A DNA stretch of 64,000 bases from Gammaproteobacteria bacterium (GTDB lineage Bacteria; Pseudomonadota; Gammaproteobacteria; Burkholderiales; Sulfuricellaceae). Shown in pieces: positions 31,254 through 42,540 of this stretch. Under the pieces are notes generated by a model. The model did no database searches. It had not been told where the DNA came from and was given only the letters and a program-made list of their open reading frames with translations. Each line of letters starts with the position of its first letter. Positions within the stretch are counted from its first letter, which is position 1. The DNA lies in NCBI GenBank assembly GCA_018824405.1, contig JAHJGO010000009.1:62001-126000 (forward strand), written 5' to 3'. Made by a program: the position numbers and the translations under genes.

Positions 31254-31338
31254 ATGGGTAATGAGTAATGAGTAATTATCTCGCCGTTTCCAGTTTCTCC
31301 CATTCCCCATCACTCATTACTCATTACTCATTACCCAT
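31254..31338. repeat. Palindromic TAATGAGTAATG-type repeat R1
   Basis: Two perfect 22-base inverted arms (31254-31275 and 31317-31338) surround a 41-base loop. The arms are made of the heptamer-like unit GTAATGA repeated. The right arm runs into the ATG of the downstream hydrolase gene. Related sequences occur near 37.33, 38.97 and 40.22 kb. It can form a long stable hairpin in RNA. Confidence 0.85.
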
Positions 31339-32209
31339 GACCACCCCACTCACGCCCGACTGCGAAGGCTATCTCAACCAACCGCAGCAGGCCATTTACT
31401 ACCGCCTCTATCGCGGCAGCGCGTTTGAATCCCGTCGCCTGCTCCTGCTACATGGCGGCGGGGTAGATGGCCAGATAACCTGGGAACCCATTGTCAGCCG
31501 CCTGCTGCACTGGACCGAGGTACTGGTACCTGATTTGCGCGGTACCGGAAGAACCCACTTCCCGGACCATCAGGAGCAAGCCTTCAATACCAGCGACGTG
31601 GTAGCCGACATGGCTGCATTGCTCGACTCACTGGGCTGGAGCAACTTCGATCTCGGCGGCTACTCCTATGGCGGTCTGATCGCCATGCAACTGAAGGCCG
31701 CGCGCCCGGCTGCCATCGGCAAAACATTTTTATTCGAACCCGGCCTGCTTAGCGGCGGCAACGAAACGGAACAGCTCAGCCGGCGAGAAATTCTGATGCA
31801 GGCAGCGCAGAAACTGCGCATCGACGATGAACTGGAATATGGCTTGCAGGTTTTTCTGGATGCCGTCTCGCCGCAGCGTAACCGCAACTCCCGCAGCGAG
31901 GAAATTGTGCGCGGTCGCCTGGCGCACCGCCCCAAAGGTCTGGCCGCCATTCTCGAAGCCGTCGTCCAGGCAGCAAAACAGCTTGACCGCACGCAACTGA
32001 TCGCCGCCCAGGAACATGTCAGCAGCTTCGTCGGAGAACGCTCATCCGCAGAAATCTTCAGCTTCTGCCAGGAAATCGCCCAACAGCACAGGGACTGGGT
32101 GTGCCACCTGATCCCCGGTACCGACCACGCCCTGCCGTTCCAGAAACCGGATGCCATCGCAAACATCATGAATGCCGACCAGCAGACGTTTCTGGCTCAA
32201 ACCGGCTGA
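31337..32209 (+). CDS. Alpha/beta-hydrolase fold protein
   Basis: This 290-residue protein has the hydrolase order: oxyanion strand LLLLHGGGVDGQITWE, then DLRGTGRTHFPD, the nucleophile elbow LGGYSYGGLIAM (Ser in GYSYGG), and a late His in GTDHALPFQ. The acid is uncertain. Substrate cannot be told; esterase or haloperoxidase-like enzymes are possible. The start chosen is ATG 31337. A start at 31268 would translate the palindromic repeat and is rejected. As a result the natural ribosome site lies inside a hairpin arm, which may reduce expression. Its 3' end overlaps zapE, convergent, by 13 bases. Confidence 0.85.
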   Translation: MTTPLTPDCEGYLNQPQQAIYYRLYRGSAFESRRLLLLHGGGVDGQITWEPIVSRLLHWTEVLVPDLRGTGRTHFPDHQEQAFNTSDVVADMAALLDSLGWSNFDLGGYSYGGLIAMQLKAARPAAIGKTFLFEPGLLSGGNETEQLSRREILMQAAQKLRIDDELEYGLQVFLDAVSPQRNRNSRSEEIVRGRLAHRPKGLAAILEAVVQAAKQLDRTQLIAAQEHVSSFVGERSSAEIFSFCQEIAQQHRDWVCHLIPGTDHALPFQKPDAIANIMNADQQTFLAQTG

Positions 32210-40204: not shown

Positions 40205-40215
40205 TTAATTCTCCT

Positions 40216-40289
40216 GGTGATGGGTGACGGGTAATGAGTGATGAGAACCCGCAACTTCCAATCCCATTCCCCATTACTTATTACCCATA
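40216..40289. repeat. Palindromic repeat R3 between sdhA and sdhB
   Basis: GGTGATGGGTGACGGGTAAT and the next ten bases on the left match, as an imperfect inverted repeat, CATTCCCCATTACTTATTAC plus CCATA on the right. It shares the core CCCATTCCCCAT with R1 and the GGTGATGGGT start with R2. Confidence 0.75.
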
Positions 40290-40291
40290 AC

Positions 40292-42052
40292 TCAATAAAC
40301 CCTCGCCTTGGGCTGGAACGCCTCCACCGTCAAGGGCTTCAGCCGCACCGGCTTGTAATCGAGGCGATGCGCATCGGAAAAGTACAGGCTGTGCTTCAGC
40401 CAGGCGTTGTCGTCGCGCGCCGGGTAGTCGTCGCGCGCATGGGCGCCGCGGCTTTCCTGGCGTGCGGCAGCGGAATGCATGGTGGCCAGCGCCACGGCCA
40501 TGAGGTTTTCCAGCTCCAGCGCCTCGATACGGCCGGTATTGTAGATTTTGCTCTGGTCGCGCAGCACTACATCCGGAAGTTTGGCCGCGATTTCCAGCAT
40601 TTTCTTCACGCCATCCTGCAGCACGGCTTCCGTACGGAACACGCCGCAATGAAGCTGCATGGTCTTGCGCATTTCCTCGCGCAGCTCCGGCACCGTGATG
40701 CCTTCGCCCGTCCGATCCCAGCGCGCCAGACGCGCAGCGATGCGCTCCAGCGCTTGGACTGGAACAGGGCGCAGAAAGGGATTTTCGCGACAGTATTCGA
40801 TCACGTCATTGCCGGCAGCGCGGCCGAACACGATCAGGTCGAGCAGCGAATTGCTGCCCAGCCGGTTGGCACCATGCACCGAGACGCAGGCGCATTCGCC
40901 TATGGCGTACAGGCCGGGCACGGCTTCTTCCGGGCCGGTCGCAGTCGGCATCACCACCTGCCCGTGCAGATTGGTGGGGATGCCGCCCATCATGTAATGC
41001 ACCGTGGGCACGACAGGAATGGGATCGGTGGCCGGGTCGACGTGGGCGAATTTCAGCGCCAGTTCGCGAATGCCGGGCAGGCGCTGCTGGATCACTTCCG
41101 GCCCGAGGTGGTCAAGCTTGAGCAGCACGTGGTCGCTGTCCTTGCCACAGCCGCGCCCCTCGAAAATCTCCACCGCCATGGCGCGCGACACCACGTCGCG
41201 ACTGGCCAGATCCTTGGCATTAGGCGCATAGCGCTCCATGAAGCGCTCGCCATTCCTGTTCACCAGGTAGCCGCCCTCGCCGCGCACGCCCTCGGTGATC
41301 AGCACCCCGGCGCCATGCACGCCGGTCGGGTGGAACTGCCAGAATTCCATGTCCTCCAGCGGAATGCCGGCGCGGAGCGCCATGCCCAGACCATCGCCGG
41401 TATTGATCAGGGCATTGGTGGTGGCCGAAAAAATGCGCCCAGCCCCGCCGGTGGCGAGGATGGTGGCGCGCGCCTCGATGAAAATTGGCTCGCCGGATTC
41501 GATCCCCAGCGCAACCACGCCCTGGGAATAGCCCTCTTCGTCCATGACCAGATCGAGCGCGAAATATTCCTCGAAGAAATGGGTACGCGCCGCGATATTG
41601 CGCTGGTACAGGGTATGCAGCATGGCGTGGCCAGTACGGTCGGCCACCGCGCAGGTACGCACCGCAGGCGCGCCGCCATAATCCTGGGTCATGCCGCCGA
41701 AAGGGCGCTGGTATATCTTGCCGTTCTCCAGCCGGTCGAAGGGCATGCCGAAATGCTCCAGCTCGATCACCGCCTCGTTGGCACCACGGCACATGAACTC
41801 GATGGCGTCCTGATCGCCGAGATAATCCGAACCCTTGACCGTGTCGTACATGTGCCAGTGCCAGTTATCCTCGCTCACGTTGCCCAGGCTGGCGGCAATG
41901 CCGCCCTGCGCCGAGACGGTATGGGAGCGGGTGGGAAACACCTTGGACACCACCGCCACCTTGAGGTCGGCATGGGCAAGCTGCAGGGCGGCCCTGAGTC
42001 CGGCTCCACCGCCGCCGATAATCACTGCGTCAAACGTTCGTTTCGCAATCAC
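40292..42052 (-). CDS. sdhA: Succinate dehydrogenase flavoprotein subunit
   Basis: This 586-residue subunit oxidises succinate to fumarate at covalently bound FAD. The FAD-binding [17 protein letters not shown] starts it, and the flavinylated His is in [37 protein letters not shown] and RHAYxR-type catalytic residues follow. The start chosen is GTG 42052 (reads [10 protein letters not shown]), with AGAGGA six bases before it; an in-frame GTG at 42112 gives an atypical extension. A second, vestigial 5' end of sdhA lies 144 bases upstream in the same frame. Confidence 0.95.
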
Positions 42053-42114
42053 GTCATGTCCTCTTCGATATGCTGCCGTATCGGCGGCCAGCACCGATTC
42101 GCCGACGGTCACAT

Positions 42115-42128
42115 CCCCGCAAGCGGGG
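42115..42128. repeat. GC hairpin in the sdhD-sdhA insertion
   Basis: CCCCGC and GCGGGG pair around an AA loop inside the extra DNA between sdhD and sdhA. Next to it is a GAGCAGGGAGCAGGGG direct repeat (minus strand), similar in style to the other simple repeats of this operon. Confidence 0.6.
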
Positions 42129-42142
42129 CCCCTGCTCCCTGC

Positions 42143-42196
42143 TCACGGCGCTCCACCAATAATCACAGCATCAAAAGCCCTCTTGGCAATACTCAT
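42143..42196 (-). pseudogene. Vestigial 5' end of sdhA (17 codons)
   Basis: The frame [17 protein letters not shown], then TGA, repeats the first 15 or so residues of SdhA ([16 protein letters not shown]). Its ATG overlaps the sdhD stop (ATGA), exactly where sdhA normally starts in such operons. The DNA is clearly diverged from the functional copy at synonymous positions. The two starts are 144 bases apart and in the same frame, separated by this TGA. It looks like the scar of recombination between two different sdhA alleles, or an old partial duplication; it may now work as a leader peptide. Confidence 0.75.
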
Positions 42197-42540
42197 TGCA
42201 CGCTCCACAAAATCTGCACCGCCCAGGCCGCATAGGCAATCAGGGCAAGGATCACCACCACGTGCAGAGTGAGGCGGATCACCGTGGGATGGATGTAGTC
42301 CATGAAAATGTCGCGCATCCCAACCCAGGCATGGATCAATACGCTGAACAGAAACAGCAGGCTGGCCAGGCGCACCGGCAGACTTTCGAACAGGCCATGC
42401 CAGGAAGCAAACGAAAGCGGCTGGGTAAAAAAGAAACCGATCAGAAACAGGCTGTAAACCGCCATCACCACGGCAGTGACGCGCTGGATCAGCCAGTCCC
42501 TGAGGCCGTAATGGGCACCGCTGACAATGCGTTTTACCAT
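42193..42540 (-). CDS. sdhD: Succinate dehydrogenase membrane anchor SdhD
   Basis: This 115-residue anchor has three transmembrane helices (RVTAVVMAVYSLFLIGFFFT, LASLLFLFSVLIHAWVGM, LTLHVVVILALIAYAAWAV). It holds SdhAB to the membrane and shares heme b and the quinone site with SdhC. The His in VLIHAWVGMRDIFMDY is the expected heme ligand. It overlaps sdhC by seven bases. Confidence 0.93.
   Translation of the reverse strand: MVKRIVSGAHYGLRDWLIQRVTAVVMAVYSLFLIGFFFTQPLSFASWHGLFESLPVRLASLLFLFSVLIHAWVGMRDIFMDYIHPTVIRLTLHVVVILALIAYAAWAVQILWSVQ

Follow-up and report, generated by a model that had tools for sequence, protein, structure and literature searches.

A hairpin repeat between two starts of sdhA and its relatives at betaproteobacterial gene ends

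In the 64,000 nucleotides of contig JAHJGO010000009.1 (assembly GCA_018824405.1) analysed here, hereafter the window, the gene sdhA begins twice, and the locus raises the question of how a second start came to lie downstream of the first with the gene still intact.

The sdhA junction in the window and in relatives

Open reading frames and profile matches place a malic enzyme gene, sdhC, sdhD, sdhA and sdhB in this order on the minus strand, as are all features below. The reading frame of sdhD (42193..42540; matched by TIGR02968 and Sdh_cyt) ends in a TGA that overlaps, within the letters AATGA, the ATG at 42196 of a 17-codon leader (42143..42196), a truncated sdhA start whose codon changes are nearly all synonymous and whose own stop is the TGA at 42145-42143. 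The working sdhA (40292..42052; TIGR01816, 932 bits) starts at GTG 42052, 144 nt downstream of the leader ATG; the sister genome has an ATG at the equivalent place. The initial annotation had described a 17-codon leader resembling the SdhA N-terminus and overlapping the sdhD stop, with a functional sdhA copy 144 nt beyond the leader start, and the sequence agrees with it in every coordinate. Between the two starts lies the only match in the window to covariance model R1, the hairpin core of a repeat (42084..42154; cmsearch, 73.8 bits, E 1.7e-18). Its outer stem is formed by a 5' arm S, AGCGCCG (42146..42152), and a 3' arm S', CGGTGCT (42090..42096), which pair at 7 of 7 positions including one G-U; the helix co-varies in 65 copies, and its register in the window was set by eye. 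A mini-ORF (42054..42146) runs from GTG 42146, overlapping the leader TGA, to TGA 42054, 1 nt before the sdhA GTG, and is thus a second small reading frame linking leader to sdhA. A Shine-Dalgarno-like GAGG (42060..42063) lies within the repeat unit, 7 nt before the sdhA GTG. The first 39 nt past the working start codon (42011..42049) were probably imported, the boundary being the 3' end of this segment. Translations of reading frames also suggest short tandem motifs of the CATCACCCATTACC type at about 40205-40290 in the gap between sdhA and sdhB and at 31268-31340 at the start of another gene.

The arrangement of leader, repeat and new start occurs at sdhA in three assemblies, those of the window genome (G000), its sister G003, and G012 from a second genus (with sister G021), where it sits inside contigs of 146, 346 and 64 kb, respectively. 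In G003 two 144-nt units stand in tandem. The G000 and G003 elements differ at 8 positions and a 3-nt gap of 96, so a single inherited insertion, followed by exchange, is possible for this pair on comparison of the elements. G001, G005 and G006, which belong to the genus, are element-free, with a simple sdhD/sdhA overlap. In two other genomes, G002 (L037 6146-8574) and G007 (L039 3968-6405), a BsuBI/PstI-type restriction endonuclease gene separates sdhD from sdhA, and the hairpin repeat is absent; a methylase-like reading frame is found upstream of it, with an Eco57I domain in the G002 copy. Because these genes sit there too, the sdhD/sdhA junction is a repeated insertion point. Y1-type transposase genes were noted about 2-3 kb downstream of sdhA in G003 (C33:257335-257658) and G005 (C1:1037762-1038082).

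Leader and working copy differ in 9 of 13 aligned codons, 8 of the changes being synonymous and one non-synonymous, where 11 random substitutions would be expected to give about 6.8 non-synonymous codons; one or fewer was reached in 0 of 20,000 simulations, with or without transition bias. The likeness of the leader to sdhA is therefore not due to chance, and the leader is not simply a decaying copy. That the two copies differ at many synonymous positions and are not a fresh duplication, as had been proposed from the window by itself, is thus upheld.

The repeat family, its stem and its mini-cistron

The stretch between the two sdhA starts, about 95 bp in the window, belongs to a family of interspersed hairpin repeats that share the core GCAGGGGCCCCG-loop-CGGGGATGCGACCG and are scattered across many betaproteobacteria. 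It matches two further places in the G000 assembly, metX/metW and a nuoA/nuoB junction (genes named by eye). The nuo copy lies on C22, a 24-kb contig that is 100% identical over 461 bp to G014:C43 from another genus, and G000 has a second nuoAB, element-free, on C12. C22 may be foreign to the G000 genome, by contamination or recent transfer, and its copy was therefore set aside, leaving sdhA, metX/metW and a tandem pair on C8 as secure copies. The metX/metW repeat (L003, about 1446-1502) has another dispersed repeat nested in it, one recurring dozens of times in genomes of the bacterial family. Among 22 such genomes, the exact core pattern was found in 9 and the covariance model in 13; at the level of the order, the model matched 44 of 200 sampled genomes at E 1e-4, and a longer exact pattern matched 26 of 399, with the reversed control pattern at 0 in every row. 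At least 113 core stretches were found in a named genome collection, and among the matches listed most titles were those of betaproteobacterial metagenome-assembled genomes; Thiobacillus thioparus (L122), which is in culture, is also among the carriers. The family cannot be put down to assembly, since it is present in two one-contig genomes, G165 with 22 matches and G167 with a tandem triple. Where units stand in tandem, their spacing is often 110-111 nt or about 140-146 nt.

Start-side copies make up 79 of 153 distinct core matches, and in them the bases immediately before RTG pair with an inner arm that lies some 45 nt downstream, forming the outer stem. In alignment A1, which holds 65 of 68 listed start-side copies (three tandem neighbours were omitted, and nine loci had earlier been skipped as duplicates), each of the 7 outer pairs is changed on both sides in some copies, and 91.4% of outer-pair cells pair. 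Over the whole structure there were 65 double-changed cells as against 11.8 in shuffles, with 0 of 500 shuffles as high; since repeat copies are related, these shuffle counts are not probabilities. Arms from the same copy pair better than arms swapped between copies (z 10.3 for 72 start-side copies and 13.3 for 64 others, each value being the best register among those scanned). The sequence of the inner arm varies with the host site. At a junction of hydrogenase type (named by eye) the bases that it matches are GAGATTA in G000 and G003 as against GAAAGCA in G015 (L053), in each case the final coding bases of the upstream gene, and at nuoA/nuoB the arms are GACAGTA/TGCTGTC in G003 as against AACGGCA/TGCCGTT in L242-L245. 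In the tandem pairs of G000 and G003 at the hydrogenase-type junction, the stem of the second unit is only partly matched, and the stability of the folded region resembles that of shuffles (z -0.76 and -0.24).

As a rule, a start-side copy contains a mini-ORF of some 37 codons. Of the 65 copies that have a Shine-Dalgarno-defined downstream start (13 of 78, having none, were set aside), 59 keep the mini-ORF frame open, as against 0 and 33 for the other two frames, and in 50 the mini-ORF TGA and the next start share the letters ATGA. At the other end, in 41 of 60 copies an upstream frame of 80 or more open codons ends in a TGA that the mini-ORF start overlaps, as against 1 and 23 for the other frames. 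The counts at both ends indicate that a start-side unit is usually a coupled mini-cistron lodged in an ATGA junction. Rfam 15 gave no match in the window at gathering thresholds and none in 41950-42260 at E 10, and two mini-ORF peptides had no match in NCBIfam. One start-side unit (L148) gave chance-level matches to plasmids (lowest E 0.04 among the best 20 of 157) and to phages (lowest E 2 among the 15 matches listed).

Duplicated gene ends and the origin of the new starts

It is probable that the repeat of about 95 bp was inserted within the 5' end of sdhA and brought a replacement for this end with it, and that the old start is what is now the leader. The replacement copy would measure about 40-48 nt, and the original start would have been severed after 16-17 codons to give a leader that remains attached to sdhD. 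The repeat would provide the mini-ORF, the GAGG and the new start, and hence an overlapping or abutting chain of sdhD, leader, mini-ORF and sdhA in which sdhA stays intact.

Evidence bearing on this explanation comes from the new starts themselves. Over its first 39 nt the working start of G000 has 1 difference from G003 and 7 from G002; past this point it differs from G003 at 10 of 30 positions (10 in the next 60 nt) and from G002 at 3 in the next 60, a contrast with Fisher p 0.0075 for windows picked after inspection. The mosaic boundary, some 39 nt into sdhA, falls where the duplicated segment ends. In the second genus, the G012 leader equals the native sdhA start of its sister G021 at 26 of 27 nt, whereas the G012 working start has 13 differences from G021 over 39 nt, followed by 2 over 30 nt and 1 over 30 nt. 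The same pattern was seen at murC of G001, where the leader matches the native starts of both G000 and G003 at 35 of 38 nt and retains, by eye, their type of overlap with the upstream gene, while the new start has an identity of 0.63-0.70 with them over the first 30 nt, followed in later windows by 0.87-0.90, 0.85-0.87, 0.75-0.78 (120-200 nt) and 0.88-0.91. In these two clearest cases the leader, as compared with its relatives, is the native start and the working start a different, previously diverged copy. Over 39 nt the G000 leader has 7, 8, 10 and 11 differences from G001, G002, G005 and G006, and the G000 working copy 11, 7, 7 and 6, so that the leader shows no clearly greater likeness to native relatives than the working copy. 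Taken by itself, the G000 leader points to no one relative. We read both G000 starts as having been protein-coding for most of their separate history and joined by import of a module of repeat plus gene start.

Gene ends duplicated around the repeat are found at other loci, as starts of murC (L048, L049), kdsA (L079, L162, L175) and ddl (L130), the latter two recognised by eye, and as 3' ends of folE2 and ilvD, named by eye from peptides. The comparison of flanks allowed up to 4 mismatches, which shifted the beginnings of matches and led to some start-side copies being mislabelled as type B; its totals for types A and B are therefore left aside. Three copies that look recent are flanked by near-identical direct repeats, at 115 of 118 positions in L174 (where the direct repeat comprises a gene start and its upstream bases), 55 of 55 in L074 and 61 of 61 in L173. 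The last of these is an IMG/VR contig and the sole match to a viral contig. Direct repeats vary from 43 to 118 bp, with 57-93 bp between them in the copies measured; a further case, L099 (91 of 92), may have arisen through damage to a tandem array instead of from a single insertion. At nuoA/nuoB, a 10-nt overlap (ATGGGAATAG) is present in 10 of 14 element-free loci among the matches listed, and where the repeat is present the overlap region is duplicated, with one copy for each gene. In G016 (L247), CGGCATGAGCATTGAAGG links the first bases of the repeat to nuoB; judged by these letters, the short remnant looks like the scar of a deleted repeat that left nuoB with a new start.

Such direct repeats of 55-118 bp at recent-looking copies, the nuoA/nuoB overlap of which each gene keeps its own copy, and the chance that the G000 and G003 elements are one inherited insertion would all be accommodated by an insertion in situ with a long target duplication and without import, after which the two sdhA starts, both from one duplication, diverged. 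This account is nonetheless unlikely, as the boundaries of the mosaics in the G000/G003 and G012/G021 comparisons are sharp, and as in G012 it is the leader that is native-like, the divergence being found in the working copy, which is under constraint; murC of G001 repeats this pattern.

A second alternative holds that leader and mini-ORF have been retained as a regulatory device for SdhA translation, with selection on it explaining the nearly synonymous divergence. The chain of overlaps is conserved across the repeat family, and the murC leader peptide is, by eye, nearly identical in G001 and G002. However, the first G003 leader is frameshifted by the loss of 2 nt and the G012 leader reads through into the mini-ORF (both by eye), and five members of the genus lack the repeat at the junction, making this an improbable explanation of the divergence. 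A function for the leader is plausible, and leader and mini-ORF may control sdhA.

The initial annotation had read the locus as recombination between two sdhA alleles; on such a reading the repeat would be a bystander. That two alleles meet here is supported by the mosaic working start of G000 and by that of G012, but the annotation overlooked the repeat element with its mini-ORF between the copies, which is present at many other gene ends. Because the same layout of leader, repeat and new start recurs at murC, kdsA and ddl, the repeat was probably part of the event, and plain exchange of alleles is very unlikely; what the comparisons support is an allele recombination whose unit would be the repeat plus the gene start. 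It had also been held that the same arrangement in relatives without allele exchange would speak against recombination; G003 and G012 have the arrangement, and both comparisons show signs of exchange. Finally, though most of the genomes are drafts, an assembly artefact or chimera is hardly credible, because three assemblies share the sdhA layout inside contigs, and tandem copies of the family also occur in the one-contig genomes G165 and G167.

For the insertion of repeat and replacement start, the likely history is that a gene end was duplicated when an element of this kind first inserted there, and that the resulting module would later have moved between species, recombining inside the short shared gene start. 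Transfer might have occurred, for example, by single crossover of a small circle or by ordinary homologous exchange, and the data fit both alike. Translation of sdhA would then proceed by re-initiation along the chain, ribosomes that end sdhD passing to the leader ATG, to GTG 42146 and to GTG 42052. Several points count against the module: the comparison of the G000 leader with its relatives, the possibly inherited G000/G003 insertion, murC of G002 (whose leader is nearest to G006, with 3 of 38 nt differing, as against 8 from G000 and 5 from G003), the drop at 120-200 nt in murC of G001, the partial stem of second units, and the unremarkable fold.

Known repeats and the meaning of the cassette

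The nearest named repeat is BRE, the Beta-proteobacterial repeat element, and the sdhA repeat may be of the same family, to judge by the description of BRE. In the account by Hot et al. 2011 (PMC3110155), as far as it is drawn on here, BRE is short, GC-rich and interspersed, often tandem and mostly intergenic, with some copies overlapping gene ends and full-length Bordetella copies of 75-91 bp. The sdhA repeat is likewise a short, GC-rich, interspersed betaproteobacterial repeat that occurs in tandem and at gene ends; unlike BRE as described there (PMC3110155), it has a mini-cistron, a co-varying stem and duplicated gene ends. Among the publications found, by title and the beginning of the abstract, neither the mini-cistron nor the sdhA case is described, BRE being the lead, and papers that matched the core letters and two peptide motifs were unrelated by the same measure.

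ERIC, Correia, Rickettsia palindromic elements and MITEs are small and non-autonomous, and some contain short reading frames or enter genes (PMC10969869, PMC2229807). The sdhA repeat is of MITE size, being small (57-93 bp), interspersed at many sites and too short for a transposase gene. It differs from all of these, as those sources portray them, in fitting ATGA overlaps and in having a stem that matches each site, and from MITEs and other small repeats in that gene-end copies of up to 118 bp can flank it. A MITE with a short, constant target duplication is ruled out by direct repeats that vary from 43 to 118 bp. A REP moved by a RAYT (Y1) transposase is not supported, as G013 (99% complete, 2 contigs) has 3 model matches and no Y1_Tnp; Y1_Tnp is present in 20 of the 22 genomes of the bacterial family, whether or not they carry the repeat. 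For the repeat itself no mobilising enzyme came to light, and inspection by eye of the reading frames between inverted core pairs at L063 and L099, the two loci examined for an autonomous parent, revealed no transposase gene.

Restriction-modification genes reportedly insert with long target duplication, according to work by Nobusato, Kobayashi and colleagues. Here, too, the insert lies between long direct repeats and the genes beside it are intact; unlike those insertions, the sdhA-type repeat unit is about 57-95 bp and has no restriction-modification gene. Some integrative elements restore the 5' end of the gene that they enter, such as SXT at prfC, which pushes the old start aside and provides another. 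The old start of sdhA has probably been exchanged for a new one in like manner, by a unit that, unlike SXT, has no integrase gene and is about 144 bp as a whole.

As a tentative generalisation, these repeats might form a class of minimal mobile cassettes, in which a hairpin repeat travels with a recoded gene end, recombines with the homologous gene of another species within about 40 nt of shared sequence and so replaces the start or 3' end of an essential gene. The inner arm S' would match the last bases before the insertion in the manner of a guide or a copied template, and the mini-cistron would plug into ATGA overlaps so that translation passes through.

In summary, the repeats at the ends of sdhA, murC, kdsA and ddl suggest a way in which very small elements can become part of essential genes that keep their function. 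Gene finders may pick the wrong start at such loci, as in the window, where the longest sdhA frame starts at GTG 42112, within the repeat. Target choice and translational coupling can be tested directly on the site-matched stem and the ATGA mini-cistron, and the cassette would be a route by which recoded gene starts spread between species.
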